Part shown: positions 732 through 61,415 of the stretch, piece after piece
Position numbering within the stretch: position 1 is the stretch's first letter
How the letters are laid out: every line of letters begins with the position of its first letter
NCBI RefSeq assembly: GCF_900113955.1
Contig: NZ_FORH01000001.1
Coordinates: 612,395-676,394 of the forward strand
Source of the DNA: Celeribacter neptunius
GTDB lineage: Bacteria > Pseudomonadota > Alphaproteobacteria > Rhodobacterales > Rhodobacteraceae
DNA: 64,000 nucleotides
Reading direction: 5' to 3'
Program-made: the position numbers and the translations under genes
The notes under the pieces: generated by a model
Databases searched by the model: none
What the model saw: the letters and a program-made list of their open reading frames with translations, nothing else
Told to the model about the DNA's origin: nothing

Positions 732-858
732 TACCAGACATTGGTCACGAGGGCGTGCGCCTGACCGCCGGGACGGTCCGGCGCAGGCGCGGCGGCTTCG
801 CCTCGTCCCGCGCCCAAAAGGTCAATGTCCGCTCCGTCCCGCAAAGCGGACAAAGCTG
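732..858 (+). repeat. modular intergenic repeat, copy A
   Basis: This copy fills the gap between the stops of dusA and the RND pump. The 26 bases at 751-776 recur identically at 33097-33122; the 23 bases at 763-785 recur at 14054-14076; and the segment 827-849 recurs with one mismatch at 14126-14148. The middle part (about 781-813) matches 61345-61385 with a few changes. GTCCGC at 827-832 can pair with GCGGAC at 846-851. No convincing coding frame; function unknown. Confidence 0.8.
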
Positions 859-877
859 CGCTTCGGGTCCTTCGCTC

Positions 878-3800
878 TTACTCCGCCGCTTCCTTGCCGC
901 CGCCTTTGGGTGGTCTGCGTTTGAGTTTCTTGATCTTACCGGTTTCCGTCTGTTCCGCTTCCACCTCGACCATGCTCTCGGGCGTGGCAGGGGGCTGTTC
1001 AGCGGGGCGTTCGGGGGCTTTGGGGACCTCGGCTTGTCGCGGTGCAGCGCCTGCGGCCAGCGCGCGCGAAGACACGCGATGCGCATCAAAGCCTTCGGGG
1101 CCACCCCAAGCCGCCTCGCCAACGGGCCAGACGAATTCCGGGTTCCTGGCGCGTTTGGCTTCGCGCATCATCCGGTAATCCTCGGCGGCGCGGCTTTGCG
1201 AGCCGAACAGTGTCGCCAGACGCATGCTCAGGTGATGCACCCCGACCCAGAACCAGACCCGGAGCGCCAGCATGGCCGGGGTGAAAATCAGGGTCAGGAA
1301 GGTGGCAATGCCGAGGCCAAAAACGACGGCGGTGGCGAGATTGGTCCAGAATTGCGCCGTGGGCGCGTTGATCGTATAGCCGCCGTCGATGAAATCCAGA
1401 GACACCGCGAACATCATCGGCGTCAGGCCCGCCATGGTGGTGATCGTGGTCAGGAGCACGGGACGGATGCGGTCCTCGGCGGTGCGCACGATGGCCTCGA
1501 TCCGGGGCATGAAACGCGCGTATTCCTGATAGGTGTCAATCAGAACGATGTTGTTGTTCACCACGATGCCCGCCAAGGCCACGACGCCCGTCCCGGTCAT
1601 GATCATGCCGAAGGTCATGTCCATGACCATCAGACCGATGAGCACGCCGGCGGTCGACATGACCACGGCCAGAAGCACCAGAACCGAATTGTAGAAGCTG
1701 TTGAACTGCGCCAGCAAGATGATGAACATCAGCGCCAGCGCGGCCCCGAAGGCCTTGCCCAGAAAGGCGCCGGTTTCCTTTTGCTCCTCGTCGTCGCCGG
1801 TCCATTCCCAGGAAACGCCCTGGGGCAGGGTGGCGTCCTCTTCGAGCCAGGTTGTGAGCGTCTCGATCCGCTCGGTGGGGGTGATCGTGACCCCGTCTTC
1901 ACGGGTCAACCCGCTGTCCACCGCCGCTTTCACATCGTAATAGCGTTGTTGATCATAGCGCGAGATCGAGGCGAGTTTCTCGACCGGTTTGCGGGTGATG
2001 AAATTCGACAGCGGCACCAGCCCGTCATTGGTGCGGACCTTGAGCGTGTCCAGTGTGGACAGCACCCGGTCCTGTTCCGGCAGGCGGACGCGGATCTCGA
2101 TCTCTTCATCGGACGAGGGCACCCGCATGGTGTCGAGCAAGATGCCGCGGGTCACGAGCTGGATCATGCCGCCGACCGTGGCGACATCGGCGCCAAAGCG
2201 CCCGGCCTTTTCGACGTCGACGTCGATCTGCCAGTCGATGCCCGGCAGCGGGCGTGTGTCCTCGATATCGGCCAACGCCGCAGTCTCGTCGAACTTGGCG
2301 CGCACCATGTCGGTGGCCTGATCGAGCGCGGTCCAATCGTCGCCCTTCAGGCGCAGGTGCACGGGTTTGGCCGAGGCCGGCCCCATCGAGAGGTTCAGAG
2401 TCTCGGTGTAGATGCCGGGGATCTTCGCCAGTTTCTCTTCGATCTGGGCCAGCACATAATCGCCGTCATATTCGGGTCTGACATGGGTGTTCTCGAAGAA
2501 CAGGAAGCCGTCCTCGGTCTCGGTCGGACGATCCTCCCAGGGAATGAGCTCGACCTGGATCTGGCCGATCGTGTCGCGCGGCCCCGAAGAGCCACCGGTA
2601 TTGGCATTGAGCCCGCCTGCGCCAGCAAAGACAAAGGCATTGTCGACCCCGGGCTGGTTGAGGATGACATCTTCGGCCTGCGCGACCAGCGCGTCCTTTT
2701 CCGCCACCGAAAGATTGCCGCGGGCCCGGACGTAGATGATCGCCTGTTCCGGCTCGGTGGCGGCAAAGAATTCCATGCCCTTGTTGTGGCCGCCATAATA
2801 GACGAAGACCCCGCCCACCGCGCCGATCACCGTCAGAATAGCGACAAAGGGCATCACCGGGTTGCCGGCGATGAAATGGGTGAAATGGCCAAACGGGCTG
2901 CGTTTATAGCCGGCATCGACCTTTTTGCGCGGGCGCGGCGTGTGCAGCGCGTTCATGGCGATCGAGGTGGCCGAGCCGCCGAGGAACAAAAGCGCCATGC
3001 CCGGCAGCAGCTTGTTCTGCAAGATCGACATCAGAGCCGCGCCCAGAATTGCCAGCGAGACGGCGGCCAGCGCCAGACGCAGGGCGACAGGCGTATGCGC
3101 CTTGAGCCAGGCGGAGGCGTGATCATAGGCCCGCGCGATGCGCCCGGTCACCCCGCCCATGACCGGCAGGTAGACGAGCGCCACGATCAGCGAGGCGGAG
3201 AGCACGAAAATGATCGTCACCGGCAGCATGCCCATGAACTGCCCGGCCACCCCGGGCCAGAACAGCATCGGCAGGAAGGCGCAGAGCGTGGTGGCGGTCG
3301 ACGACACGATCGGCCAGAACATGCGCTTGGCGGCCTCGACGAATGAGGCCATCGGGCCTTCGCCCTCATCCATCTTGCGGTCAGCATATTCGACCACCAC
3401 GATGGCACCATCGACCAGCATGCCGACGGCGAGGATGAGGCCGAACATGACGATGTTGGAGATGGTGATGTCCATCAGCCCCAGAAGGATGAAGCACAGA
3501 AGGAAAGAGGTCGGGATGGCAAAGCCGACGAGCAGCGACGAACGGATGCCCAGAGCCGCCAGCACCACGATCATCACCAGCGCGATTGCGGTCAGCACCG
3601 AGTTCTCGAGCTGGTTCACCATCGAGGAGACCTGACGCGACTGATCGTTCGAAGTGCCCACCGTGATCGCGTCCTGCAGGGGCTGCGGCCAGCTTTCGTA
3701 TTCGGCCTGCACCTCCTGTTTGACCAGCTCCACCGTGTCGATGATCGGGTAGCCTTTGCGTTTCACCACCTGCAGCGCCACGGTCGAGGTGCCGTTGAAC

Positions 3801-4615
3801 CGCGCGGTGCCGGCCCGATCCTCGAAGGTGAGGCGGATATCGGCGAGATCGCCCAGGGTGACCACCCGGTCGCCATTGACCTTGACGGGAAGTGCCATGA
3901 CATCGCGTTGGTCGCTGAAGGAGGCGGGGATCTTGACCGAAAACGTGCCCTGATCGGTCTGGATCTCGCCCGCCGCGACGAGCTGGTTGTTCATCGTGAC
4001 GACGTTGATCAGCTCGCCCGCCGTGACATTGTAGGATTCGAGCCGCAGCGGATCGATCTCCACCTCGAGCATCTCATCGCGCTGGCCGGCGAGTTGGGCG
4101 TCGAGCACCGGCTCGAGCCCTTCGATCCGGTCCTGCATCTGTTTTGCATATTGCACCAGCGTGCGTTCCGGCACCGGGCCGGTGAGGTTGACGATCAGGA
4201 TCGGAAATTCCGAGAAATTCACCTCGTCGATCGTGTAACCATCGGCGCCGGTGGGGAAATCCGCCTCGACCCGGCCCATGCGGTCGCGCACATCGGCGAT
4301 GGTCTTGGTCTTGTCCCAGCCGAACTCGAATTGCAGCCAGATGCCGCCGTAATTCTCCGACGCCGTGGCCGACATGCTGTCGAGCCCGTCGAGATCGGAC
4401 AGCTCGGTCTCCATCGGCTTGATCAGCAGTTTCTCGGAATCCTCGGCGGAGATGCCGGGGAATTGCACCGAGACATAGAGCCCGGGGATCTCGATATCCG
4501 GTTCGCCCTCTTTCGGCAGGCTGACATAGGCATAGCTGCCGGCGATCAGTGTCAGCGCGATGAAGGCGAGGATCATGCGGGCACGCTGGCCCGCCCAGTC
4601 GACGATGCCGGTCAT
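878..4615 (-). CDS. RND-family efflux pump, inner-membrane permease
   Basis: Proton-driven exporter of the hydrophobe/amphiphile-efflux RND type, working with the membrane fusion protein encoded immediately upstream (ATGA overlap at 4612-4615). At 1245 residues it is longer than AcrB (about 1050). The extra length comes from a hydrophobic insertion near residues 500-555, between the two halves, and from a charged Lys/Glu-rich tail after about residue 1165. TM4 carries GMLVDGAIVVVE near residue 400, so only one of the two AcrB relay aspartates is present. The TM10 region reads VVNNNIVLID near residue 1018, without the AcrB lysine, as in several non-AcrB RND subgroups. Substrate unknown. No outer-membrane channel gene is adjacent. 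Confidence 0.93.
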   Translation of the reverse strand: MTGIVDWAGQRARMILAFIALTLIAGSYAYVSLPKEGEPDIEIPGLYVSVQFPGISAEDSEKLLIKPMETELSDLDGLDSMSATASENYGGIWLQFEFGWDKTKTIADVRDRMGRVEADFPTGADGYTIDEVNFSEFPILIVNLTGPVPERTLVQYAKQMQDRIEGLEPVLDAQLAGQRDEMLEVEIDPLRLESYNVTAGELINVVTMNNQLVAAGEIQTDQGTFSVKIPASFSDQRDVMALPVKVNGDRVVTLGDLADIRLTFEDRAGTARFNGTSTVALQVVKRKGYPIIDTVELVKQEVQAEYESWPQPLQDAITVGTSNDQSRQVSSMVNQLENSVLTAIALVMIVVLAALGIRSSLLVGFAIPTSFLLCFILLGLMDITISNIVMFGLILAVGMLVDGAIVVVEYADRKMDEGEGPMASFVEAAKRMFWPIVSSTATTLCAFLPMLFWPGVAGQFMGMLPVTIIFVLSASLIVALVYLPVMGGVTGRIARAYDHASAWLKAHTPVALRLALAAVSLAILGAALMSILQNKLLPGMALLFLGGSATSIAMNALHTPRPRKKVDAGYKRSPFGHFTHFIAGNPVMPFVAILTVIGAVGGVFVYYGGHNKGMEFFAATEPEQAIIYVRARGNLSVAEKDALVAQAEDVILNQPGVDNAFVFAGAGGLNANTGGSSGPRDTIGQIQVELIPWEDRPTETEDGFLFFENTHVRPEYDGDYVLAQIEEKLAKIPGIYTETLNLSMGPASAKPVHLRLKGDDWTALDQATDMVRAKFDETAALADIEDTRPLPGIDWQIDVDVEKAGRFGADVATVGGMIQLVTRGILLDTMRVPSSDEEIEIRVRLPEQDRVLSTLDTLKVRTNDGLVPLSNFITRKPVEKLASISRYDQQRYYDVKAAVDSGLTREDGVTITPTERIETLTTWLEEDATLPQGVSWEWTGDDEEQKETGAFLGKAFGAALALMFIILLAQFNSFYNSVLVLLAVVMSTAGVLIGLMVMDMTFGMIMTGTGVVALAGIVVNNNIVLIDTYQEYARFMPRIEAIVRTAEDRIRPVLLTTITTMAGLTPMMFAVSLDFIDGGYTINAPTAQFWTNLATAVVFGLGIATFLTLIFTPAMLALRVWFWVGVHHLSMRLATLFGSQSRAAEDYRMMREAKRARNPEFVWPVGEAAWGGPEGFDAHRVSSRALAAGAAPRQAEVPKAPERPAEQPPATPESMVEVEAEQTETGKIKKLKRRPPKGGGKEAAE

Positions 4616-5748
4616 TGCTCGGTCTCCGTGCCTTGCGCGGTTTCGCTGTCGAAATGCGGTTCGATCAACACGCCGGCGCGGACGAATTCCTGCCCGACGG
4701 TGATGATATCGGCCTGATCCGGCAGGCCCGCGACCCAGATGCCGTCTCGGGTGTCGCGCAGCACTTCTACGGGTGCGAAGACCACGCGATTCTCCGGGCC
4801 AACGAGACGCAGGCCGATCTGGCCCTCATCGTTCAGGGTGAGCGACGATTGCGCCACCAGATGCGCCGGTTTGCCCGCCGCCGAGATCGCCAGTTCCACG
4901 GTCTGCCCGTCGCGAATGGCGAAATCCGGGTTGGGGATCTCGACCTCGACGCGGAAGGTGCGGGTGGCCGGATCGGCGGAGCGCGACAGGAAGCTGACCT
5001 GACCGGTCACGGTGTCACCCGACACCAGGCGCGCACCGGTCAGAGCGCCGAGCTTGATCTCGCTAACGTCGGCCTCGGGGGCGTAGACCACCAGCTTGAT
5101 CGGATCGAGCTGAAGCACCGTGGCACAGGCGGCGCCGGCGGACAGGAAGGTGCCGAGCTCGGCCGTGTCGCTTTCCAGCAGCCCGGCGAAAGGCGCCTTG
5201 ATCTGCAGATTCTCGATGTCGCGGGTGATCTGTGCCACTGCGGCGCGAGCACTTTCGAGCCCGGCCTCGGCGGAGAGCACCCGGGTCTCGGACGCATAGC
5301 CGCCGGTCGCGAGTGTGCGGGCGTTCTCGAGCGCCACCCGGGCCTCGGTCTCGGCGGCTTTCGCCTGGGCCAGAGAGGCATCGCGGGTGCCCGGGTCCAA
5401 TTCGCAGAGCGCCTGACCGGCCTCGACCACGGTGCCTTTGCGCAGCGGCGGGTTGATCACCCGGCCGGTGGTCTCGGCGGTGACATTGACGCTGCGGGCG
5501 GCCTCGGTCTCGCCGCGCAGGATCACCGCGCTGTCGAGCTGACGGGCGCTCGAGTGCCGCGCGACCACGGCGACGGGTTTGACCTCATTGGCGATCTTTT
5601 GCGCCGGCGGCAGGTCGAGCGTCACGGCATTGGCCGGTTCGGACGCGTCCTCCGCCGGGTCCGTGCCTGCCAGGCGGTCGCGTTCGAAAATGAACAGGTA
5701 CAGGGCCACGGTGACCAGGAGGGCGATAAGAATGGAAACAATACGCAT
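4612..5748 (-). CDS. RND efflux membrane fusion protein (HlyD/AcrA family)
   Basis: Periplasmic adaptor linking the RND permease to an outer-membrane channel. The 378-residue protein begins with a single hydrophobic segment (residues 4-21) that acts as uncleaved anchor or signal. A barrel-sandwich/lipoyl-type half motif follows (TGRVINPPLRKGTVVEAG), then an Ala/Glu-rich helical hairpin (about residues 125-180), the second lipoyl half (IKAPFAGLLESD) and a beta-barrel domain. It is first in the operon and its stop overlaps the start of the permease gene, so the two are probably translationally coupled. No lipobox is seen at the N-terminus. Confidence 0.93.
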   Translation of the reverse strand: MRIVSILIALLVTVALYLFIFERDRLAGTDPAEDASEPANAVTLDLPPAQKIANEVKPVAVVARHSSARQLDSAVILRGETEAARSVNVTAETTGRVINPPLRKGTVVEAGQALCELDPGTRDASLAQAKAAETEARVALENARTLATGGYASETRVLSAEAGLESARAAVAQITRDIENLQIKAPFAGLLESDTAELGTFLSAGAACATVLQLDPIKLVVYAPEADVSEIKLGALTGARLVSGDTVTGQVSFLSRSADPATRTFRVEVEIPNPDFAIRDGQTVELAISAAGKPAHLVAQSSLTLNDEGQIGLRLVGPENRVVFAPVEVLRDTRDGIWVAGLPDQADIITVGQEFVRAGVLIEPHFDSETAQGTETEQ

Positions 5749-5945
5749 GGCTCTACAGCTCTTTCTGTGGCTCTTTCAGTCCGATCTTGCGACCCGTTCG
5801 GGCCGGTTTGGCAGGGGCCGATCCCGGGGAGGGGCCGGGGGCAGGTCAACAGGTTTGCAACCCTTTCGTATCATGTCTGCGATCCTTTCCCAGATCACAC
5901 TCTGCCGCACGTGAGACTTGGTCTCGGGTCATCACATCCTCGGGA

Positions 5946-5960
5946 GTTAATGTGATTAAC
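5946..5960. promoter_or_regulatory. palindrome GTTAAT-N3-ATTAAC, candidate operator
   Basis: Perfect 6-bp arms around GTG, located 198-212 bp upstream of the membrane fusion gene start and about 290 bp upstream of the YfgM-like gene, within an AT-rich patch. The symmetry suggests a dimeric repressor site. The regulator is not encoded beside it, so the link to efflux control is inference. Confidence 0.45.
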
Positions 5961-5992
5961 ATTGCGGCCAAGATGGGAGCATGTCGCAGGCT

Positions 5993-6006
5993 ACACAAGG
6001 TTGTGT
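5993..6006. promoter_or_regulatory. palindrome ACACAA-GG-TTGTGT, candidate operator
   Basis: Perfect 6-bp arms separated by GG, 33 bp from the GTTAAT palindrome (about 4.5 helical turns centre to centre). It could be an independent binding site or part of one composite operator. The function is inferred only from symmetry and position. Confidence 0.35.
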
Positions 6007-6250
6007 TTCAAAAAAATGAGTGCCGAATTGAGAATTTGTCAGTTTTTCGCGACGAGGGGCGATTTTGTTAACCGCTCGGCCCGGTGAGCTGATCAAATCC
6101 GCACAAAGCGTGGCATGGGCGGCGGGCGGCGCGGCCTGTCGTGGCGACAGAGTCGCGCGGGTCTTGGCAATCCGTCGATGTTCGGGGTAAGAGAGGGCCA
6201 GAGTTTAGAAACCATAAGATCCTGCGCCAGGGCGCGCGGCTGGGGGAACA

Positions 6251-6904
6251 GTGAGCCACAGCGATACGTTTATCGAAGAGGTGACCGAAGAGGTCCGCCG
6301 CGACAAGTTCTTTGCCTTCCTGAAAAAATACGGCTGGATCGGGATCGCCGCCGTTGTCGCGCTGGTCGGCGGGGCGGCCTATAACGAATATGCCAAATCC
6401 CAGGCCCGCGCCCAGGCCGAAGCCACCGGTGATGCGGTGACCGCGGCCCTGGGCGCCGAGACATCTGAGGCCCGGGCCGAGGCGCTGGCCACCGTGCCGG
6501 CCGAGGGCGAGGCCCGTGTGGTGGTGGCGATGCTGCGCGCCGGCGAGCTTTATGACGCAGGCGATATCAAGGGCGCCATGGCGGCGCTGGCGCCGCTCAC
6601 CGCCGATGCCATGCTCGATCCGGTGTTCCGTGATCTGGCGGTGCTCAAGACCGCGATGATCGGCGCCACCGAGATCAAGCCCGAGGACCGGATCAGCCAA
6701 TTGGCTGGCATTGCCAGCCCCGGCGCGCCCTACCGGCTTTTGGCCGAGGAGCAAATCGCCGCAGCTCAGGCGGAAATGGGCGATGTTCAGGCCGCGGTCG
6801 AGGGGCTTCGTGCGATCTCTCAGGATGTTGAGGCCAGTAATGCCTTGCGTCGGCGCGCGGCACAGATGATTGTGGCGCTTGGGGCCGATCCGCTGGCGGA
6901 ATGA
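6251..6904 (+). CDS. YfgM-like membrane-anchored tetratricopeptide protein
   Basis: A 217-residue protein starting at GTG (6251) behind a GGGGGA box. The N-terminal 25 residues are cytoplasmic and charged, one TM helix (about residues 29-46, GWIGIAAVVALVGGAAY) follows, then an Ala-rich helical domain of the TPR_21/DUF2133 type. The family is thought to act as an ancillary factor next to the Sec translocon and BamB, handing secreted proteins to periplasmic chaperones. The order yfgM-bamB-der is widely conserved in proteobacteria and is preserved here (86-bp gap to bamB), which supports the call. Confidence 0.85.
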   Translation: MSHSDTFIEEVTEEVRRDKFFAFLKKYGWIGIAAVVALVGGAAYNEYAKSQARAQAEATGDAVTAALGAETSEARAEALATVPAEGEARVVVAMLRAGELYDAGDIKGAMAALAPLTADAMLDPVFRDLAVLKTAMIGATEIKPEDRISQLAGIASPGAPYRLLAEEQIAAAQAEMGDVQAAVEGLRAISQDVEASNALRRRAAQMIVALGADPLAE

Positions 6905-6989
6905 ATGCGCTGAGCAATCGGGCCGAATAAACTTACGGAGCGATCCGCAGATGCCCTGGAGGGCCGCGACGGATCGATAGGGGAGTGCG

Positions 6990-8360
6990 ATGATGGGTCA
7001 GTCGGGCAAAGCGGGGCGTCCCAGAAACCTCGGGATCACCAAATTCGGTGCCCTCGGGCTTGTGGCCATGCTCGGGCTGACCGCCTGTGGCGCGGCCCGG
7101 GACGAGGTCCTGAGTGGTACACGGGTGGATCTGCGCGAGGGCTCGGTGCTGGGCGCGGCGCAGAGCGAAACGCCCGAGAATCGCACGGTTTCGATTTCCT
7201 TGGGCAAACAGGTCGCACGCAGCGCCTGGACCATGACCGGCGGCGGGCGCACCCATGACGCCGGGCACAATGCCTTTACCGCGGCCACGCCCAGCGTGAT
7301 CTGGAGCGCCAAGATCGGCGAGGGCAAAAGCCGCAAGACCCGGCTCACCGTCGATCCCGTGGCTGCAAACGGGCTCATTGTGGCGATGGATGCCCAGGCA
7401 CGTCTGACCGCCGTTTCCGCCGAGAGCGGCGCGCCCGCCTGGTCCGTCGATCTGACGCCTGCGGGCGAGAAGGCCGGCAAGGTCTTCGGCGGCGCGCTGG
7501 CGATTTCCGGCAAACAGATTTTTGCCACCACCGGCTATGGCGATCTGATCGCGCTCGATCTCGCCTCCGGCACCGAGATCTGGCGTCAGCGGCTCGATGC
7601 GGTCGGTGCCGCCGGGCTGTCGGTCTATGACGGGCTGGCCTATGTGGTCGCCGGCAATGGCCGGGTCTGGGCAGTGAACACCGTTGACGGCCGCGTCAAA
7701 TGGCAGATCACCGGGCCTGAGAGCGTGACCTCGCGCGCCGGCGCCACCTCGCCGGCCATTGGCGATAAATTCGCCGTGCTGCCTTTCTCTTCCGGCGATC
7801 TCTATGGCGTGTTCCGCAAGGGCGGCGTGCGCTATTGGTCGGCTTCGCTGGCCGGTCAGCGCAAGGGCGTGGTCTATGCCAATGTCTCCGACATCACCTC
7901 CGACCCGGTGGTGATCGGCAACCGTTTCTACGTCGGCAACCAGTCCGGGCGCTATGCCGCTTTCGACATGGATACCGGCAGCCGGCTCTGGACCGCCGAT
8001 GAGGGGGCCTACAGCCCGGCTTCGATCGTCGGTGGCTCGGTCTTCATCGTCACCGACCGCAACGAGCTGGTGCGGCTGTCGGCCACGACCGGTGAACGGA
8101 TCTGGGGGCAGCAATTGCCGTATTTCACCACCGACAAGGAGCGCAAGCGCAAGACCGTGTTCGCGCATTACGGTCCGGTGGCGGCGGGCGGCAAGCTCTG
8201 GGTCGCGTCCGACGATGCGGTGCTGCGCGGCTTCGATCCGGCCTCGGGGGCTTTGGTCGCCTCGGTCGCCCTGCCGAAGGGGGCGTCTTCCGATCCGATC
8301 GTGGTGGGCGGGGTGATGTATATCCTGCTCGAGGACGGGTCGCTGGCCGCTTTGCGCTAA
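6990..8360 (+). CDS. bamB: outer membrane assembly lipoprotein BamB (PQQ-like beta-propeller)
   Basis: Lipoprotein subunit of the BAM complex that inserts beta-barrels into the outer membrane. The 456-residue product has a basic N-terminus, a hydrophobic stretch and the lipobox LGLTAC near residue 33. The rest consists of repeated PQQ-type blades with recurring segments such as [31 protein letters not shown] and GSLAALR, as expected for an eight-bladed propeller. Two tandem ATGs (6990, 6993) follow a GGGGAG box, so the exact start is ambiguous by one codon. It lies 65 bp upstream of der. Confidence 0.93.
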
Positions 8361-8425
8361 ATCTCTTTGACGCGCCCCCCCAAACGGGTGTATCGCAGCC
8401 GCTTGAACCAATCCCGGAGCCTGTC

Positions 8426-9943: not shown

Positions 9944-9990
9944 AACAAACGCTCACGCGTTTGCCATCGGCGGGAGATATCTAGAGACAG

Positions 9991-10020
9991 AAAAAGGGAG
10001 GCGTTGCGCCTCCCTTTTTT
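9991..10020. terminator. bidirectional rho-independent terminator der / xth
   Basis: The stem GGGAGGCG / CGCCTCCC with a short TT-containing loop is flanked by an A-run on the left and a T-run on the right, so it can end transcription of der (rightward) and of exonuclease III (leftward). It sits in the 80-bp gap between the two stops. Confidence 0.9.
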
Positions 10021-10023
10021 ATC

Positions 10024-10854: not shown

Positions 10855-10901
10855 GGAGTGGCTCCCGGCTGTCTTCGGCGTTTTGCCCCTTTGTAGGGGG
10901 C

Positions 10902-12098: not shown

Positions 12099-12205
12099 AG
12101 CGTGGTTTTGCGCAGTCGCGGCCGGATTTGGCAAGGGGCGGCGATGCTTTACTCCGAATTAAGGCGCTGAGGCTACCCTGCGGTGCGCATGCGTGGGGGC
12201 TTGTC

Positions 12206-13285: not shown

Positions 13286-13297
13286 TCCGGTCGGATC

Positions 13298-13672
13298 TTA
13301 GCCGGCATCCATGGTCTGCATGTGGCGCAGGGTCGAGGTCGCCACCGGCGTGGTCTTGCCGTTTTCGGTCAGCACGATCAGCACTTTGCGCGCCGTGGTC
13401 GGCATGATCTCGACCTTGACATTCTCATTGGCACCGGCGTGGATCGCGGCAGAGCCGAGGAACGCGCCCTGGCTACCCTGCGAGAAGTCGTAGATCGAGA
13501 TCGTGCCAGCGTCGGAAGCGCGCACGAGATCCAGGTCGACGACGGATTTCAAGTCGCTCGCATGGCCGGGGATGATGTAATTATAGTCCATCGTCGCTGC
13601 ATAGGAGGCGCTGCCGGCCGCGACGGCGATCAGGGCGGCGGCGGTGAGGGTTTTCAGCGTTGCAGAAGTCAT
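13298..13672 (-). CDS. small exported protein, function unknown
   Basis: 124 residues with a clear Sec signal peptide (basic start, hydrophobic TLTAAALIAVAAGSA, cleavage probable after SYA near residue 25). The mature part of about 99 residues has no Cys and alternates hydrophobic and polar residues, which suggests a beta-rich fold. I recognise no enzyme motif. It is a single-gene unit with its own terminator, and a long non-coding region lies upstream. A periplasmic location is inferred from the signal peptide. Confidence 0.75.
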   Translation of the reverse strand: MTSATLKTLTAAALIAVAAGSASYAATMDYNYIIPGHASDLKSVVDLDLVRASDAGTISIYDFSQGSQGAFLGSAAIHAGANENVKVEIMPTTARKVLIVLTENGKTTPVATSTLRHMQTMDAG

Positions 13673-14158
13673 TGTCTTGTCCTTTCCAAGGTTGTTTCAA
13701 CATGGCGGAACGGGAAGAACTTCGGGTCCGTCTGTGCCCTTAGACCTGTGGCCCCCGGGGGCGGATTGTAAGGGATTGATTTATCACAAGAACGCGCCCG
13801 ATCCGTGAGGGTGTCGTGCATTTTCGTGAGTGGTGGGGGGATTGCGGCGCTCAGAGGCAGGGAAAGCAGGCGATTATGCGGGGTGTCTGTTCACGACACC
13901 TTGGCAAGTGGGACTTTGAGGTCATGTCGGACATTGGGAGCTGAGGGCGGGCGCCGGACCGTGGGCTGGTGCAGCCCTCCTCAGTGGTCTTCACTTTATC
14001 CTAGTCAAATCCGAAAAAGATCGATGCGTTGTATGGGGATGCCACATGCGCCAGACCGCCGGGACGGTCCGGCGCACGCCCGGGCAACTGCGTTGCTGTT
14101 CCGGGCGGGTGCGCAAATTGCGAACGTCCGCTCCGTCCCGCGAAGCGGCCATTCCGTC
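13673..14158. other. 486-bp intergenic region with inverted repeats and repeat copy B
   Basis: Lies between the exported-protein gene (start at 13672, minus) and the 3' end of erpA. GGTGTCGTG at 13810-13818 can pair with CACGACACC at 13892-13900. A local hairpin GGTGTC (13882-13887) / GACACC (13895-13900) competes for the same right arm. From about 13915 the sequence belongs to the intergenic repeat family. The open frame at 13805-14518 crosses erpA on the other strand and is not credible. Confidence 0.6.
13915..14152 (+). repeat. modular intergenic repeat, copy B
   Basis: Shares 14054-14076 identically with 763-785, 14126-14148 with 827-849 (one mismatch), and 14073-14103 with 33153-33183 (three mismatches). 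The left part, with GGACATTGGGAG near 13927, resembles the GGGGACATTGGG segment at 33079. This copy ends against the stop of erpA; unlike the other copies it is not between two convergent genes. Confidence 0.72.
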
Positions 14159-33069: not shown

Positions 33070-33245
33070 GAGTCCATTGGGGACATTGGGATGTAAGGGC
33101 GTGCGCCTGACCGCCGGGACGGGTCATGCCAGAGGCATGCTTTCAGCATGACCGCACGCCCGGGCCACTTCGTGGCTGTTCCGCGCCGATGGCACTTCGT
33201 TCGAATGACGGCTAAGTCCCGCAAAACCGCCATCCGAGATGGCGC
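33070..33245 (+). repeat. modular intergenic repeat, copy D
   Basis: Fills the gap between the convergent stops of bamE and msrB. 33097-33122 is identical to 751-776. The stretch 33153-33183 matches 14073-14103. The right end (about 33216-33245) carries GTCCCGCAAAACCGCCATCCG, similar to the ends of copies A and B. An internal inverted repeat GGTCATGC / GCATGACC at 33122-33129 and 33145-33152 (with GCATGC inside) is specific to this copy. Confidence 0.8.
33228..33244 (-). terminator. hairpin at the end of msrB, possible terminator
   Basis: CGCCATC / GATGGCG with a CGA loop; on the minus strand GGTTTTGC follows, on the plus strand CTCTTT. It could act in both directions. It is at the same time the last module of repeat copy D. 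Confidence 0.55.
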
Positions 33246-34589: not shown

Positions 34590-34815
34590 CCCTTTGGGGA
34601 CATTCACCTGCTTGGCGCGGAACAAGGCCGAGGGCCGCCGCGCCTGCGCCTGCCCGTCCCGGCGGGGAGGCGCATTGTCCTCCGCGCATAGACCTCAAAT
34701 CATGGATGTAATCTGCGCCATAAAGTGCTCCGCTCAATTGTTTGAGCGCCACCCCACGGGCAGGCTGGTCACAGCTCAGCGACAGAGTGGCCAATGCCCC
34801 CTCCGTCCGCAGATC
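34590..34815 (-). repeat. modular intergenic repeat, copy E (long form)
   Basis: Read on the minus strand, this aligns with 61195-61415 over more than 200 bases, including CCTGCCCGTGGGGTGGCG, TTGAGGTCTAT, GTGCGCCTCCCCGC-like and GGACGGGCAGGCGCAGGCG segments. It occupies the gap between the convergent stops of olsB and hsp20. A 105-residue open frame on the minus strand is an effect of the repeat composition. The corresponding frame in copy F is broken differently, so the element does not look protein-coding. Confidence 0.85.
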
Positions 34816-34861
34816 TGCCGTTCTCAAAGAGGCATCATCCACAATCCCCCCCCCCCGAAAA

Positions 34862-46625: not shown

Positions 46626-46640
46626 CGCGGCTCTCCCTGC

Positions 46641-49911: not shown

Positions 49912-50099
49912 GCCCACTCCTCGTTCTGCCTCTGTCAGGCCTCAATTAGGCCGGTTCCTCTCGGACCCGATTGCGATCCCCGTGCCAGCGCATGGCACGC
50001 AGAAATCCTGTTGCCCTCTTTCTAAGAGGTTTCGCGTCGCGGGCCAAGCGGATTGCGGCCCATGATCGGTTGCGATCGGCGACGCCATGCCGGCCCCGG

Positions 50100-52307: not shown

Positions 52308-52311
52308 TCCC

Positions 52312-53409: not shown

Positions 53410-54617
53410 GATGCAGCCCCCGTGTGATCTTTCGTGTCCTCTCCGGCGCCGGTTTTCGTCTGGGCATTGCGCCGGCGGCGCAGCAGCGGCGGCCGGGTCG
53501 AATGCCACAGCAGCAGGCTGGCGAGCACGATGGCGACCAGCGACGACAGGTAACGCAGCGGCCAGAGCTGCGGGTCGCGATCGATCAGCCCTTCGAAGGA
53601 ATTGTCCATCGATTTGACGACGACCAGCAGGAAAATGGCCAGAAGGATCTGGCGCCACAATCCGAAGCGCGAAAACCCGCCGATCAGCAGCGCGGCAAAG
53701 CCGACGAGGCAGATGGCGACGCCTTGCACCGCCTTGTTCATCCGCTGGGTGACCTCGGCGAGCATGCTCAGGGGCGTGATCCCGAGGTCCTGTTGCAGCA
53801 CCGGATCGGCCTTGAGCAGGGTGAAACTGTCGGTGGCGCGCAGGCTGCGTCGCTGATCGGTCTGGTTGCCCAGAAGCCCCTTGAGGCTATAGGCGAAACT
53901 GTCGAACCGGGTGACCGAGAGACGGGTGTCCGCGATGTCGAAGGTCTGGGTCATGCCATCGAACATCAGGAGCATCGGCCCCTCGTCATCTTTGACGATC
54001 AGCGCGCGGCTGGCCATGAAGCTCTGGCGCTGGCCTTCGCTGCGGCTGTTGGAGAGATAGACATCCTCCAACTCGCCGGCCGGGGTGATGTTGCGGACGT
54101 AAAAGGTGATGCCCTTGACCGGATGGACGAATGTGCCCTCGGTCAGCAGCTGGGCGGTGACGTCGCGGGCAATCTCGGCCCGGCGCAGGTCGAGCTCGCG
54201 TTGCGACAGCGGCACGAGGATATGCGCGAGGATGGCCACCATCAGCCCGACAATCAGGCCGAAGACCAGAACCGGACGCGCCAGCCGATAGGGCGAATAG
54301 CCCGCCGCCTGCACCACCACCAGTTCGGATTCGGAGGCCAGCCGGTTGGTGACATAGACTGTCGCGGCAAAGGCGGCGATCGGCAGCATGTTGACCAGGA
54401 TGGTCGGCAGTGAAAGCAGGGTAAGCTGCAAAAACGTCGAGGCCGATTGCCCGTCGCCCATCAGCCAGTCCAAGAGGCTCACCGCCTTGTTGACCCAGAA
54501 CACCAGAGCCAGCACGAGCGAGAAGAATCCGAACAGCATCAGCAATTGCTGAAGCATGTATTTGTCGAATCTTCCCAAACCGCTGATCCTCGAAAATATC
54601 GGGTGACGCACCCTCAT
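53406..54617 (-). CDS. lptF: LPS export ABC transporter permease LptF
   Basis: Partner of LptG. 403 residues as drawn from ATG 54617; a start at the TTG at 54578 (GRFDKYMLQQLL) behind AGGA would match the usual family length better. TM helices at both ends flank the periplasmic domain (about residues 130-290). The coupling region ASESELVVVQAAGYSPYRLA is present. A basic, likely disordered tail (RRRRNAQTKTGAGEDTKD) ends it. Divergent from pepA over 118 bp. Confidence 0.93.
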   Translation of the reverse strand: MRVRHPIFSRISGLGRFDKYMLQQLLMLFGFFSLVLALVFWVNKAVSLLDWLMGDGQSASTFLQLTLLSLPTILVNMLPIAAFAATVYVTNRLASESELVVVQAAGYSPYRLARPVLVFGLIVGLMVAILAHILVPLSQRELDLRRAEIARDVTAQLLTEGTFVHPVKGITFYVRNITPAGELEDVYLSNSRSEGQRQSFMASRALIVKDDEGPMLLMFDGMTQTFDIADTRLSVTRFDSFAYSLKGLLGNQTDQRRSLRATDSFTLLKADPVLQQDLGITPLSMLAEVTQRMNKAVQGVAICLVGFAALLIGGFSRFGLWRQILLAIFLLVVVKSMDNSFEGLIDRDPQLWPLRYLSSLVAIVLASLLLWHSTRPPLLRRRRNAQTKTGAGEDTKDHTGAAS

Positions 54618-54735
54618 GGGTCTCGCGCCGGACCTTATCCTTGCTTGCGCGCGGGAGAAAGGTCCAATCTCGCACTGGTCAGCCCTGTCTTTGGCCGCTA
54701 CCTATGTGGGAAGCTGACAACACAAAGGATTTGCC

Positions 54736-56202
54736 ATGACCGCGCTTGCCAAGATCACCACCTCCGCCATCGAGCTTGATGCGATTGCCGGGGCCCCGGG
54801 CCGGGTGGCCGTGCTGGTCTCGCCGGATGGCAAGCTCTCGGCACCGGCGCGCCGGGTCAATCGCCTGACCAAGGGCGCGTTGCAACGGTTTCTGGACAGC
54901 GCCGCGTTCGAAAAGATGCAGGACGGCGAGGCGAAGAGTTTCGATTTTCCGACCGGTATGGAGGCCGAGGCCGTTCTGGTCCTGAAACTGGCCAATCAGG
55001 CCTCCGCCGAACTGTGCCGTAAGGCCGGTGCGGCGATCGGCGCTGCGCTCACCGAGACGGGTGCGCTGGTCCTGCCGGGCAGTCTCAAACGCGTCGAGGA
55101 ACTGGCGCTCGGGATGATGCTGAAACATTACAGTTTCATCGATCACAAGAGCTCCGAGGAAGAGCGCGTAATCCCCGAGGTGACGCTGGCCGTCAGCAAG
55201 CCCGAGGAGATCGATCTCACCGCCGTGACCGCACTGGCCGAAGGCGTGTTCTTTACCCGCGATCTGGTGACGGAGCCCTCGAATGTGCTGACCACCAGCG
55301 AGTTTGCCAAACGTCTGGTTGAGCTTGAAGAGCTCGGCGTCAAGGTCGAGGTGTTCGAAGAGGATCGCCTCGCCGAGCTGGGCATGGGGCTCCTGCTTTC
55401 GGTCGGTCAGGGCTCGGTCACGCCGACCAAGATGGTGGTGATGCAGTGGTCTGAAGGCGGCGAGGAAGCCCCCGTGGCATTGGTCGGCAAGGGCGTGGTC
55501 TTCGACACCGGTGGTATTTCGATCAAACCGGCCGCCGGCATGGAAGACATGACCATGGACATGGGCGGCGCCGGCGTGGTCTCCGGCGTGATGAAATCCC
55601 TGGCGCTGCGCAAGGCGCCGGTCAATGTCGTGGGCCTCGTCGGTCTCGTTGAGAACATGCCCGACGGACAGGCGACGCGCCCGGGCGATGTCGTCAAATC
55701 GATGAAGGGCGACACGGTCGAGATCATCAACACCGATGCCGAGGGGCGGCTGGTGCTGGCCGATGTGCTCTGGTACGCGCAGGAGACCTTCGCGCCCCGG
55801 GCCATGGTCAACCTTGCCACCCTCACCGGTGCGATCATCATCGGGTTGGGCCATGAGAATGCCGGGGTCTTTTCCAATGACGATACCTTCTGCCACACCT
55901 TCCTGAAAGCCGCCGAGGCCGAGGGCGAGGGCGCCTGGCGCATGCCGATGGGCAAGGCCTATGACGATCAGCTCAAATCCGATGTCGCGGATATGAAAAA
56001 CGTCGGCGGCCGTCCGGCGGGCTCGATCACGGCGGCGCAATTCCTCAAGCGGTTCGTCAAGGACGAGACGCCGTGGATCCATCTCGATATCGCCGGTGTG
56101 GCCTCGGTCAAAACGCCGACGGTACTTGCCCCCAAGGGCGCGACCGGCTGGGGCGTCCTGGCGCTCAACCGGATGATCGACGAGATGAACAAGAAGGACT
56201 AA
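54736..56202 (+). CDS. pepA: leucyl aminopeptidase PepA (M17)
   Basis: Zn/Mn-dependent aminopeptidase, cytosolic, hexameric. 488 residues. The M17 signature NTDAEGRLVLADVL (near residue 332) and the metal-binding VGKGVVFDTGGISIKPAAGM are intact. The N-terminal macro-like domain is less conserved. Located divergent from lptF and upstream of holC, as in gammaproteobacteria. Confidence 0.96.
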   Translation: MTALAKITTSAIELDAIAGAPGRVAVLVSPDGKLSAPARRVNRLTKGALQRFLDSAAFEKMQDGEAKSFDFPTGMEAEAVLVLKLANQASAELCRKAGAAIGAALTETGALVLPGSLKRVEELALGMMLKHYSFIDHKSSEEERVIPEVTLAVSKPEEIDLTAVTALAEGVFFTRDLVTEPSNVLTTSEFAKRLVELEELGVKVEVFEEDRLAELGMGLLLSVGQGSVTPTKMVVMQWSEGGEEAPVALVGKGVVFDTGGISIKPAAGMEDMTMDMGGAGVVSGVMKSLALRKAPVNVVGLVGLVENMPDGQATRPGDVVKSMKGDTVEIINTDAEGRLVLADVLWYAQETFAPRAMVNLATLTGAIIIGLGHENAGVFSNDDTFCHTFLKAAEAEGEGAWRMPMGKAYDDQLKSDVADMKNVGGRPAGSITAAQFLKRFVKDETPWIHLDIAGVASVKTPTVLAPKGATGWGVLALNRMIDEMNKKD

Positions 56203-56208
56203 GGCCCG

Positions 56209-56667
56209 ATGGGCGCCGTCTATTTCTATCACCTGACCCGGGCGCCTCTGGCGGAAACACTGGGCACGCTGGCGGAGAAATCGCTCTCCGCCGGTTGGCG
56301 TGTCGAAGTGCGCGGGCGTTCGGACGAGATGCTCCGCGCGCTCGATCAGGCGCTCTGGCTGCGCGAGGGGTTCCTGCCGCATGGCATGGCCGGCGGGCCG
56401 CATGATGCGGATCAGCCGATCCTGATGACCGCTGGTGTGGGCGGCAACGCCGCGTCCTGCATCATGTCGGTCGGCGGCGCCGAGCTGACCGTGGCGGAGA
56501 TCCAGGCCGCGGATCGTGCCTGTATCCTGTTCGACGGCTATGACGAGGCGGCGGTGCAGCACGCCCGCGTGCAATGGAAAAGCCTGACGGACGGCGGCGC
56601 AGAGGCGCAATACTGGTCCGAGGAAAGCGGCCGCTGGGAGAAGAAGGCAGAAAGCAAGAAAGGATAG
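56209..56667 (+). CDS. holC: DNA polymerase III chi subunit HolC
   Basis: Chi links the clamp loader to SSB. 152 residues. Begins GAVYFYHLTRAPLAETLGTL and has the family patterns LWLREGFLPHGMAGGPHDADQP (divided here) and ILFDGYDEAAVQHAR. Starts 7 bp after the pepA stop, so co-transcribed. Confidence 0.92.
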   Translation: MGAVYFYHLTRAPLAETLGTLAEKSLSAGWRVEVRGRSDEMLRALDQALWLREGFLPHGMAGGPHDADQPILMTAGVGGNAASCIMSVGGAELTVAEIQAADRACILFDGYDEAAVQHARVQWKSLTDGGAEAQYWSEESGRWEKKAESKKG

Positions 56668-56671
56668 ACGC

Positions 56672-57307
56672 ATGAGCTGGGCCGAGATCGTGACATTTGC
56701 CCTTGTGGCCGCGCTTCTGGTGATGTCGCCGGGGCCCAATGGCGTGTTGATCGCCAAGACCGTGCCGACATCGGGCCGGGCGGCGGGCTTTGCCAATGTC
56801 GCGGGGTTTGTCACGGCGTTCTACCTGCACGGGGCGCTGTCGATCCTCGGGCTCTCGGTGATCCTGGTGCAATCGGCGCTGGCCTTCACCGTGGTGAAAC
56901 TCTTGGGCGCAGCATACCTGTTCTGGATCGGGGTGAAAGCGCTCAAGGCGGCCTGGCAGGGTGGGGGCCGCGCGCAGGAGGTTGCCCCCGCCCGGCGCGA
57001 GCGGACACTGCGCCGCGCCTATGTCGAAGGGCTTCTGACCAATGCGCTCAACCCGAAGGTCTCGATGTTCTACCTTGCGGCGTTTCCGCAATTCATCGCC
57101 CCCGGTGAAACCCCGGTTCTGGCGTCTTTCACACTGGTGGTGATCCATTCGCTGATCAACGCGCTGTGGTTCGGGGCAATGGTGATGTTGTTTGACCGGC
57201 TGGCGAAGCGGCTCAGCGGTGGCGGATTTCAGCGCTGGCTCAAAGGCGTCACCGGGGTGATCTTCGTGGGCTTTGCCGCCAGATTGGCAAGCCTGCGGGC
57301 GGTATAA
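56672..57307 (+). CDS. LysE/RhtB-family exporter (second copy)
   Basis: 211 residues, about six hydrophobic helices. VMSPGPNGVLIAKTV at the N-terminus and GLLTNALNPKVSMFYLAAFPQF in the middle define the family. Only 4 bp after holC, so it belongs to the pepA-holC unit. Distinct from the other LysE-type gene at 35559-36212; substrate unknown. Confidence 0.88.
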   Translation: MSWAEIVTFALVAALLVMSPGPNGVLIAKTVPTSGRAAGFANVAGFVTAFYLHGALSILGLSVILVQSALAFTVVKLLGAAYLFWIGVKALKAAWQGGGRAQEVAPARRERTLRRAYVEGLLTNALNPKVSMFYLAAFPQFIAPGETPVLASFTLVVIHSLINALWFGAMVMLFDRLAKRLSGGGFQRWLKGVTGVIFVGFAARLASLRAV

Positions 57308-57355
57308 CGCCGCCTCGCGCTCCCAGGCCGAGGTCCGGGTTGCTCTAGCGCGGCT

Positions 57356-57934
57356 TCACCGTGTCAGCACCAGCTTGTTCTGTTTGATCTCGATGCTCTT
57401 GTAGCGTTGCAGGTAGTCCATGCCCAGAAGCGAGCCGAACAGTTCGCCATCGGTGACATAGGCGCGCACGCCCGTGTCGGTGACGCCTTCGAGCGTCAGC
57501 GCCTTGATCCTGACCGGCGCGGTGCGCACCGTGCCATTGGCGGTCTGGGCGCGGCCCGTGTAGGCGAGATTGTCGATGTCGATGCCGGCCCGTTCGGCGT
57601 CACTCAGGGACAGCACGACATTCGAGGCGCCGGTGTCGACGAGAAATTCCACCGGCACGCCATTCAGATCGGCCGTGACCGAGAAATGCCCGGAGTGATC
57701 GCGATCGACGGTGATCACGCCATTGCCATCGCTGATCTGCGCCGGGGCCAGACGCGGCTTTACATCCTGCCAAAGCCCCACGGCGGCCAGCGCGCCGATG
57801 AAGATCAGCAGCCACAAGACCGCATGGCGCAGCATCTGCCCCATGCGGTTGCGATTGGCGATGACGTAGTAAAAGCCAATCACGCCCAGAAGCAGCGAGA
57901 GATAGAGAATGCGGCCTGTGTCCATTTGATCCAT
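57356..57934 (-). CDS. membrane-anchored retropepsin-like aspartic protease (clan AA)
   Basis: 192 residues from ATG 57934 (or ATG 57925). Two hydrophobic segments near residues 9-26 and 37-57 anchor it. A single aspartic-protease domain follows, with the catalytic motif VEFLVDTGASNVVLS near residue 114 and a second strand ELFGSLLGMDYLQRYKSIE. The organisation matches the bacterial TIGR02281-type family, which must dimerise to be active. Substrates unknown; the protease domain probably faces the periplasm. Confidence 0.87.
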   Translation of the reverse strand: MDQMDTGRILYLSLLLGVIGFYYVIANRNRMGQMLRHAVLWLLIFIGALAAVGLWQDVKPRLAPAQISDGNGVITVDRDHSGHFSVTADLNGVPVEFLVDTGASNVVLSLSDAERAGIDIDNLAYTGRAQTANGTVRTAPVRIKALTLEGVTDTGVRAYVTDGELFGSLLGMDYLQRYKSIEIKQNKLVLTR

Positions 57935-58043
57935 GGGTCTTAGATAGGCATGAAAAATTGTTTTGTCAGCGCGGCAATCTGTTCCTGACGCAAATGTCAG
58001 CAAGAAAGATCGGGGAAAGATCGGGGCAGGGATCAGGCGCGGA

Positions 58044-58667
58044 TCAGGCGAAGAACAGCGCCTTGATACCATCGGCGACGAATTGCACCGAGAGCGCCGC
58101 CAGAAGCATGCCCATGAGACGCGTCACCACATTGATGCCGGTGGCGCCCAAAAGCCGTTCCATCGGCGTGCTCATCACGAAGAAGAACAGCACCACCAGC
58201 AGCACGGCAATCAACACCCCGAGCATCATGAAGACACCGGCGACGCCAGGGGCCTGATCGATCAGGAGGATCATCGAGGTGATCGCCCCGGGACCTGCCA
58301 GAAGCGGCGTGGCCAGCGGAAAGACCGACGGGTCCTCGACCGGCTGATGTTCCGGGTGCTGGGCATGTTCCTCGCGCCGCTTGCTGCGTTTCTCGAACAG
58401 CATCTCGAGCGCGGTCAGGAACAGCAACAAGCCCCCGGCGATGCGGAAAGCCGGCATGGAAATGCCCACGAATGTCAGCACGTGATCGCCAAAGAGGCCG
58501 AACAACGTCAGGATGGCAAAGGCGATGAGCACGGCGCGCAGGCCGACGGCGCGGCGATGTTTCGCGCTCGCCCCCTGGGTCAGGGCCACGAACAGCGGCG
58601 CCAGCCCGATCGGGTCGATGATGACGAAAAGCGTCATGAAAGCGGTGATCAGCACTTGCGGGTCCAT
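58044..58667 (-). CDS. MarC-family integral membrane protein
   Basis: 207 residues, six hydrophobic helices. [20 protein letters not shown] and the conserved [15 protein letters not shown] are diagnostic for MarC/UPF0056. A charged, His-rich loop ([20 protein letters not shown]) lies in the middle. Function unknown; the family was named from the mar locus but does not confer resistance. Lies 26 bp after the ABC-F gene on the same strand. Confidence 0.9.
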
Positions 58668-58693
58668 GCGGGTCTCCTGCGGTCAGCCCGGGT

Positions 58694-60547
58694 TCAGGCC
58701 TGGGCCTGTTCGAGTTTCTCGAGTGCGGTCATCCACAGCGCCTCGGCGCGGTCGATGGCTTCCGAGACCTCGGCATATTTCTTTTGCCAGACCACGGCGG
58801 CTTCCTTGTCCTCGTAAAGCTCGGGGTTGGCGAGCTTGACCTGAAGCTTCTCGCTCATCTCGGTGAGCTTGCCGACGCGTTCTTCGCATTTGCGCACCTC
58901 GCCCCGCAGCGCAAGGATCTCGTCGCGGCTGGCTTTCTTGGGCTTTGCGGCGGCTTTCGCGGTCTTCTTCTCCGGTTTCGGCTTCTCGTCGCCTTGCAGC
59001 AACAGCTTGCGATAGGCGTCGAGATCCTCCTCATAGGGCGCGACCCGGCCATCCTTGACGAGCCACAGCCGGTCGGCCACGAGGCTCAACAGGTGCATGT
59101 CGTGCGAGACCAGAACCACGGCGCCGGTATAGGCGGTGAGCGCCTCGACCAGCGCCTCGCGGCTCTCGATGTCGAGGTGGTTGGTCGGTTCGTCGAGGAT
59201 CAGGAGATGCGGCGCATCGAGGGTTGCGAGCAACAGCGACAGCCGGGCTTTCTGACCGCCGGAGAGCCGTCCGACCTCGGTGTCCGCCTGATCGGCCCCA
59301 AGGCCGAAGCTCGCCAGCTTGGCGCGGAGTTTCGGCGGCAGCATGCCGGGCAGGGCGCTTTGCAGGTGCTGCAAGGGCGTCTCGTTCAGATGCAGCTCAT
59401 CGACCTGGTGCTGGGCGAAAAAGCCGATGCGCAGCTTGTTGTGGCGGGTGATCCGCCCGCCCATCGGCTCGAGCCGGTTCGACAGGAGCTTGGAGAGCGT
59501 CGATTTGCCCTCGCCGTTGCGGCCCAGGAGTGCGATGCGGTCGTCCTGATCGATGCGCAGGTCGAGCCGTTGCAGGATCGCCTTGCCGTCATAGCCGACC
59601 GAGGCGCCTTCCATATTGATGATCGGCGGCGACAGTTCCTCGGGCTCCGGGAAGGTGAAGACCACGCGCGCGGCATCCTCGGGCGCGGTGATCGTCTCCA
59701 TCTTCTCGAGCATCTTGACCCGGGATTGCGCCTGTTTTGCCTTGGAGGCCTTGGCCTTGAACCGGTCGACGAAGCTTTGAAGATGCGCGCGGTGCAGCTC
59801 CTGCTTTTTCGCCGCCGCGGCCTGAACCGCCCGTTTGGCGGCGCGGGTCCTGGCGAACTCGTCATAGCCGCCCGAGTAGAGCGTCAGTTTCTTGCTCTCG
59901 AGATGCAGGATCGCCCCCACGGCGCGATTGAGCAGCGCCCGGTCGTGCGAGATCAGCAGCACCGTGTGCGGGTATTTCGCGAGATAGGTCTCGAGCCACA
60001 AGGCGCCTTCGAGATCGAGATAGTTGGTCGGCTCATCCAAGAGCAGGAAATCCGGCTGCGAGAACAGCACGCCGGCCAGAGCCACGCGCATCCGCCAGCC
60101 GCCCGAGAAGGCCGAACAGGGCATCAAGATCTCGGCGTCGTTGAAGCCGAGCCCCTTGAGAATGGACGACGCCCGCCCCTCGGCCGACCAGGCGTCGATA
60201 TCCGCGAGACGGGTCTGAATTTCGGCGATCCGGTGCGGGTCGGTGGCGTGTTCGGATTCGGCCATCAGCGCGGCGCGTTCCTTGTCTTCGGCCAGAACCG
60301 TGTCGAGAAGCGAGACCTCGTTGCCGGGAACTTCCTGGGCCACACCGCCGATGCGGGCGCGTTTCGGGATCTCGATCGCGCCGGTCTCGAGCACCAATTC
60401 GCCTTTGATGATGCGAAACAGCGTGGTCTTGCCCGCGCCATTGCGGCCCACGATGCCGACCTTGTGGCCGGTGGGAATGGTGACGGAGGCATTCTCGATC
60501 AGAGTGCGGCCATCGACGGAATAGGTGATATCGTGGATCTTAAGCAT
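58694..60547 (-). CDS. ABC-F family ATPase (YheS-like)
   Basis: Soluble twin-ABC protein, expected to act on the ribosome. ATG 60547 ([20 protein letters not shown]) fits the family although no Shine-Dalgarno box is seen; a GTG at 60586 adds 13 residues. 617 residues. Walker [10 protein letters not shown] and GRNGEGKST, signatures [11 protein letters not shown] and [19 protein letters not shown] and DEPTNHLD. The interdomain linker (residues about 240-310) is Lys/Ala/Gln-rich. The C-terminal Lys/Ala hinge and coiled coil differ from Uup. Not a resistance gene by any visible signature. Confidence 0.92.
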
Positions 60548-60688
60548 GGGGGTGACTTGCCTGAGCTTTCGGGCAAGGTCAATCACGGCTTTTCAAACCG
60601 CTTTCCCCATGTTATCCGGCGCGCAATCTTCGGGTGTGGTTCCGTCCCGCCCGTTTTCGCTCACATTTTGACCCAAGAGGCACATCCC

Positions 60689-61111
60689 ATGGCGATCCAG
60701 CGTACCTTCTCCATCATCAAACCCGATGCCACCAAGCGCAACCTGACCGGCAAGATCGTTGCCAAATTCGAAGAGGCCGGCCTGCGCGTCGTAGCAAGCA
60801 AGCGCATCCAGATGACCCTGGCGCAGGCTCAGGCCTTCTACGGTGTGCACAAAGACCGTCCGTTCTTTGGCGAACTCTGTGAATTCATGATCTCCGAGCC
60901 GGTCGTCGTGCAGGTGCTCGAAGGCGAAGACGCCATCGCGAAAAACCGCGAAGTCATGGGCGCCACCAACCCGGCCGACGCTGCCGAAGGCACCATCCGC
61001 AAAGAGTTCGCGCTCTCCGTCGGTGAAAACTCCGTGCACGGCTCCGACGCCCCGGAAACCGCCGCTCAGGAAATCGCCTTCTTCTTCTCCGGCATCGAGC
61101 TGGTCGGCTAA
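60689..61111 (+). CDS. ndk: nucleoside diphosphate kinase
   Basis: Equalises NTP pools. ATG 60689 behind AAGAGG; 140 residues, standard. [19 protein letters not shown] start, and the catalytic His in the motif [14 protein letters not shown] (near residue 117). Single gene with its own terminator, divergent from the ABC-F gene over about 140 bp. Confidence 0.97.
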
Positions 61112-61136
61112 GCCTTTTTAGGTTTAGAGAGATTTG

Positions 61137-61167
61137 AAAGGCCGCTCCTACAGGGGGCGGCCTTTTT
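61137..61167 (+). terminator. rho-independent terminator of ndk
   Basis: 12-bp stem AAAGGCCGCTCC / GGGGCGGCCTTT (one G-T pair) with loop TACAG and a run of five T. Confidence 0.93.
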
Positions 61168-61194
61168 CTATTGTCGGCGAAGGTTCGTTTTGGT

Positions 61195-61415
61195 GGGACG
61201 AAGGGACGTTTGCGATCTTGGCGCTGAGCCGTGACAAGCCTGCCCGTGGGGTGGCGTTCAAAACAATTGAGCGTTTCACTTTATGGTGCCAGATACATCC
61301 ATCATTTGAGGTCTATAGGCGGCCTGAGTGCGCCTCCCCGCAGGGACGGGCAGGCGCAGGCGCGGCGGCTTCGCCTTGTTCCGCGCCGGATGCGTGAATG
61401 CCCCCAAAGGGCTCG
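61195..61415 (+). repeat. modular intergenic repeat, copy F (long form)
   Basis: Collinear with the minus strand of 34590-34815 over more than 200 bases with scattered substitutions and small indels. The right part GGCGCAGGCGCGGCGGCTTCGCC also matches copy A at about 781-804. Frame-shifting differences between copies E and F argue against a conserved protein. It ends next to the stop of the TfoX-domain gene. Confidence 0.85.

Follow-up and report, generated by a model that had tools for sequence, protein, structure and literature searches.

A structured intergenic repeat of Celeribacter neptunius, probably REPIN-like, found across many genera of the Rhodobacteraceae

Two accounts (PMC3733652, PMC8049555) describe repetitive extragenic palindromic sequences (REPs) and REPINs as inverted pairs of palindromes around a spacer that form a long single-strand hairpin and have solo derivatives; they occur in many intergenic copies, prefer convergent or tandem gaps and contain G-T pairs in their stems. 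In a 64,000-nucleotide stretch of the Celeribacter neptunius genome (contig NZ_FORH01000001.1, positions 612,395 to 676,394; hereafter the window) we analyzed five copies, A, B, D, E and F (Table 1), of an intergenic repeat that resembles REPs, REPINs and bacterial interspersed mosaic elements in all of these respects, from the spaced palindromes, single long hairpin and solo derivatives to the intergenic copy number, the gap preference and the G-T stem pairs. On balance, the repeat is probably REPIN-like, a mobile but non-autonomous element about 170 nt long. It differs from the described systems in this length, in a conserved TTTAT tip and in an extra 3' hairpin with three-way pairing; in addition, the element appears to have no GTAG tag, and the genome has no REP-associated tyrosine transposase (RAYT). 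Of 60 left ends, 1 has GTAG, as do 12 of this genome's 80 copies when both flanks and both strands are counted. The corresponding raw counts for CGTC, a motif common in GC-rich ends, are 1 of 60 and 59 of 80.

About 100 copies of the core is a fair estimate for this genome. A covariance model of the core made from 30 copies (R1) has at least 81 genome matches at E<0.001 and at least 99 at E<=1, with 150 of 8,714 candidates scored and a few of the weak matches being opposite-strand echoes. BLAST with copy F as the query gave at least 44 matches (40 of 94 candidates scored). A 30-nt hairpin nested in some copies occurs 31 times in the genome, compared with 0 for a reversed-pattern control; 19 of these places are outside the 81 R1 matches, and each has element sequence on its flanks by eye (21 read). 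The core is enlarged in 13 of 80 sequenced copies, nearly all through this hairpin. A motif test sorted 70 of the 80 as full length and ten as not, although one of the ten (C7:224978) appears full length by eye. The original prediction, made from the window alone, described a mosaic family and anticipated tens of copies; both hold at the genome scale, the mosaic character being visible in a nested hairpin that occurs in either orientation, in copies that lack the spacer and in ends that vary. Two further variants were seen: in G000:C17:183079 the left part of the copy is exchanged for an unrelated long hairpin, and in four species (L064, L066, L067, L071) an additional hairpin module beginning GGAGTGGAAATAATCC lies upstream of the element as another variable end.

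The core of about 170 nt is a single long-range rod, in which the left half is paired with the right half, plus a 3' hairpin (H2). RNAalifold on 112 copies selected both the long-range pairing and the 3' hairpin. We examined the fold in an alignment of 60 copies, 19 from this genome, 35 from fifteen other genomes and 6 from named plasmids. In rod and 3' hairpin together, 95.2% of cells are paired (81.6% when shuffled), two-sided changes occur in 21 of 27 pairs, and the covariation score is 0.323, compared with 0.095 when shuffled and at most 0.055 in slid controls; the covariation counts are inflated by related rows, yet every slid control fails. The compensatory substitutions that the original prediction called for are present in this structure. 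An initial model of two local hairpins scored 0.193 and was dropped in favor of the rod. Column 24 can pair with its rod partner, column 150, in 58 of 60 copies and with its local-hairpin partner, column 36, in 18; column 133 can pair with column 36 (rod) in 57 and with column 150 (local hairpin) in 12. The rod tip comprises about 75 nt and includes the nearly invariant TTTAT, mostly as CTTTAT.

Three segments, X, Y and X', covary. Pairing of X with Y extends the rod outward in 72 to 83% of copies, depending on the pair, and Y also pairs with X' within the 3' hairpin. Among 56 ungapped rows, which have 15 different Y sequences, Y:X' is kept in 56 and X:Y in 44. The 37 distinct triples keep Y:X' in 37 and X:Y in 28, and for either helix none of 2,000 shuffles was as high. 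X:Y is lost in many copies of this genome. Either the segments form two exclusive states of one molecule, or X and X' were a single segment in a tandem or circular unit from which the element descends. In one genome (G177) units repeat in tandem every 171-174 nt, and one convergent gap of Pacificitalea manganoxidans contains three spaced copies.

The stems carry a strand signal. In 87 well-paired rows, from an alignment that was fitted to the model, there are 47 G.U and 16 A.C cells, in 17 and 3 column pairs, respectively. This excess of G.U favors selection on one single strand, RNA or single-stranded DNA alike.

The repeat is located between genes, mostly at their 3' ends. Genes were called with a purpose-written codon-usage caller that misses short genes, so that F was scored as tandem, and C17:113688 was left out of the gene-context counts. 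In none of 80 copies does a called gene extend more than 20 bp into the core, in agreement with the prediction that the repeat is exclusively intergenic. The gaps that hold these copies are convergent in 46 cases, tandem in 32 and divergent in 2. A circular replicon has equal numbers of convergent and divergent gene pairs, and the skew in placement is therefore strong. Among 70 copies from other genomes, 31 are in convergent, 30 in tandem and 6 in divergent gaps, 2 overlap a called gene and 1 is at an edge. Within tandem gaps the element has no strand bias; it has the same orientation as the genes in 19 cases and the opposite orientation in 13 (14 and 16 in other genomes).

The fold as a single rod and the spread of the repeat over many genera of the family both go beyond the original prediction. 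R1 matches were found in 17 of 61 genomes, all within one family. A full-length model (R2), made from 60 copies and including B-, E- and F-like types, matched 91 of 150 Rhodobacteraceae genomes, each from a different genus, at E<=1e-4, and fourteen of the genomes used for later comparison have at least 18 R2 copies each. A class-wide draw had R2 matches in 3 of 144 genomes, namely this genome and two further Rhodobacteraceae. Such per-genome counts are lower bounds, because the family-wide scan scored up to 18 candidates per genome and the class-wide one up to 19, both with stricter filters, and a lack of matches is no proof of absence. No R1 match at E<=0.01 was found in 80 ndk loci of named genomes. 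Named copies are located on plasmids of Pacificitalea and Salipiger, and the plasmid records listed have no annotated feature over the element.

Most orthologous sites that we compared are without a copy in relatives. At site D, 12 of 12 relatives lack the element and have a gap of 53-128 bp with an intrinsic terminator (by eye), a terminator that is lacking in this genome; locus L161 (G014) ends short and was excluded. The loci of 13 relatives contain no R1 match at E<=0.01 and two weak ones at 0.42 and 0.71. At site E, genome G003 has a gap of about 43 bp with a terminator only, and in C. halophilus and C. baekdonensis the element is missing from site F, although ndk, the TfoX gene and a similar terminator are in place. 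At ten further sites, picked for the apparent lack of a terminator in this genome, the 80 orthologous stretches of twelve relatives include a single element (L372 of G001). It sits at the site of C7:255579, where the copies of G001 and of this genome are of different type and where the convergent stop codons of 8 of the 11 other relatives are 3 bp apart (by eye). The empty sites anticipated in relatives were therefore found as far as the absence of copies is concerned, but not as junctions precise to the base. In one orthologous gap, relatives carry different types of the element (L133 and L140 vs L136 and L086), as if one had been replaced or converted.

The genome encodes no RAYT (Y1_Tnp, PF01797) and no RVT_1 reverse transcriptase (PF00078). 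RAYT is present in 8 of 37 relatives, and this genome may formerly have had one and lost it since. Both enzymes were rejected as the mobiliser, being absent here and distributed in a way that does not follow the repeat; since RAYT is missing and does not track it, we class the repeat as working like a REPIN but outside the RAYT-linked class. Carriage by phages was also rejected, with no match in phage records and none in viral contigs for two patterns. A third pattern identified one viral contig (IMG/VR) with a full copy (L413:8515-8685, minus strand, 127 bits) between terminase and portal genes, amid a cluster of capsid, tail, DUF2460 and Gp84-like genes that resembles a gene transfer agent operon. 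The original reader recognised no named family. This agrees with Rfam 15, which at gathering scores has one tRNA only in the window and nothing at E<=1 in six loci with copies, and with the parts of the literature that our search covered, few subscription journals among them, where no description was found (including PMC8632094, PMC5107571, PMC2864571, PMC12306157).

Read as a REPIN-like element, the repeat consists of two imperfect palindromes, inverted around a spacer, that pair with each other into the rod and are followed by the 3' hairpin. Copies would move, the recognised feature would be the single-stranded fold of one strand (RNA or single-stranded DNA), and an enzyme acting in trans would copy the element. 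Insertions may survive mainly between the 3' ends of genes, either because no gene or promoter is broken there or because such gaps are themselves the target. The pairings of Y with X (rod base) and with X' (3' hairpin) may be alternative states of one molecule, or they may be one helix of a tandem or circular unit. We regard a bolder version as doubtful: the repeat would be a structured, mobile nucleic acid of a novel type whose two ends are redundant (X = X'), with a Y able to pair with either, copied single-stranded (RNA, circular or single-stranded DNA) by a mobiliser that is neither RAYT nor reverse transcriptase, and kept across the Rhodobacteraceae. The sober reading of this structured, family-wide repeat is a new variant of the REP/REPIN kind.

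Several observations weigh against the REPIN-like reading. None of the flanks read at ten sites clearly shows a target duplication or an empty site precise to the base. Some copies (C17:179185, L080, L087) are common to several species at one site; part of the family is therefore old and could be retained because it serves the host. Neither enzyme tested tracks the repeat: RAYT is present in 3 of 14 genomes with high copy number and in 1 of 14 without a match, and RVT_1 in 3 of 14 and 7 of 14, respectively. In an unfitted alignment the strand signal is reduced to 26 G.U and 19 A.C cells, 11 of the A.C cells coming from one column pair.

A rival that we consider unlikely is an RNA element acting in cis at the 3' ends of mRNAs (a factor-dependent terminator, insulator or 3' stabiliser) that spread through host benefit. 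Placement at gene ends and the G.U excess agree with it, as do the terminators of all twelve relatives at site D where this genome has none, and 33 of 46 element-bearing convergent gaps have no canonical terminator outside the element. Such a role would nonetheless sit poorly with the even strand distribution in tandem gaps and with the terminators kept beside E and F. At the ten further sites a terminator is present in 13 and the element in 1 of the 80 orthologous stretches, so the relatives do without either, and terminator replacement, suggested by D and by the convergent gaps, was rejected as a general rule because just 13 of 80 stretches have one. The control for the convergent gaps (4 of 12 gaps without the element) was too small and too short-gapped and was not used. 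Like intrinsic terminators, the repeat has GC-rich hairpins at gene 3' ends; unlike them, it has the long-range rod and no T run after the hairpin, the sequences read having UUGUU or UUGAUU inside H2 and no T run behind the core.

It is quite improbable that the repeat is a miniature inverted-repeat transposable element (MITE) for which a DDE transposase provides the mobility by recognising degenerate inverted ends in the copies of this genome. These copies are, as in MITEs, short, gene-free and numerous, with apparent inverted ends, and 71 left and 70 right ends have similar inverted profiles around GGGGACATTGG, an anchor motif that we chose ourselves, with a symmetry that extends weakly about 16 nt outward. 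Against this, the structured core is common to genera while most copies from other genera have no ends that could be recognised by eye, the flanks at the ten sites show no clear target duplication, and an insertion sequence to match was not seen, no search having been aimed at one. Ancient, now immobile relics that recombination and gene conversion had spread would account for the mosaic copies and for the differing types at one site (L133, L140 vs L136, L086). We hold this to be very unlikely, as relics would be expected to lose pairing, yet the stems remain paired to the extent given above across genera, and the majority of compared sites are empty in relatives. Rhizobium intergenic mosaic elements are mosaic, palindromic, intergenic and alphaproteobacterial. 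The repeat fits this general description and differs in that its hosts belong to another bacterial order.

Within the window, R2 scores are 132.8 bits for E, 126.6 for B, 116.7 for F and 60.1 for A, and the best match elsewhere is 13.7 bits. D scores only 11.7 bits because it carries the nested hairpin, which has one match in the window and 0 in 100 shuffles; D was assigned to the family through this hairpin and 27 bases shared with A (750-776, 33096-33122), one more than the 26 first reported. The 23 bases said to be identical in A and B were read as GACCGCCGGGACGGTCCGGCGCA at 763-785 and 14054-14076, and for the block of about 31 bases with three mismatches in B and D the match found here spans 39 nt (85%). 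A and D appear to be spacer-deleted copies in which the left arm is fused to the right arm, which would explain their common bases. The reported long alignment of E and F stands as similarity over their length, with the added result that E is inverted relative to F and the other copies.

Table 1. Positions of the repeat copies and their parts in the window
Feature	Positions	Strand	Remark
Copy A	732..858	+	apparently spacer-deleted, left end joined to right half; R2 match 741-814
Copy B	13915..14152	+	full length; R2 match 13935-14107
Copy D	33070..33245	+	apparently spacer-deleted, carries nested hairpin
Nested 30-nt hairpin within copy D	33123..33152	-	31 genome matches, reversed-pattern control 0
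Copy E	34590..34815	-	full length, inverted vs F; R2 match 34614-34782
Copy F	61195..61415	+	full length; R2 match 61221-61387
F, rod left arm GCCTGCCCG	61238..61246	+	partner of 61347-61355
F, CTTTAT of rod tip	61279..61284	+	TTTAT nearly invariant across alignment
F, rod right arm CGGGCAGGC	61347..61355	+	partner of 61238-61246
F, 3' hairpin H2 (GGCGCGG ... CCGCGCC), segments Y and X'	61359..61387	+	

The flanking genes, read for each copy, place all five outside genes as originally claimed. Four copies lie between convergent neighbors: A between dusA and an RND permease gene, D between the genes for BamE and MsrB, E between those for OlsB and Hsp20, and F between those for Ndk and TfoX_C, the first of each pair on the plus strand and the second on the minus strand. 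Copy B has a called minus-strand open reading frame on one side and erpA, also on the minus strand, on the other. A run of 11 C at 34846-34856 lies beside copy E and the terminator on the Hsp20 side (from 34858).

Of 150 genera sampled from an abundant bacterial family, 91 have the repeat, which has no Rfam match in the scanned sequences. Because X, Y and X' covary, a structural switch or a circular form can be tested for directly. The family also offers a comparative system for how a fold-conserving non-coding element persists and spreads without the usual transposase, a question that REPs leave open.

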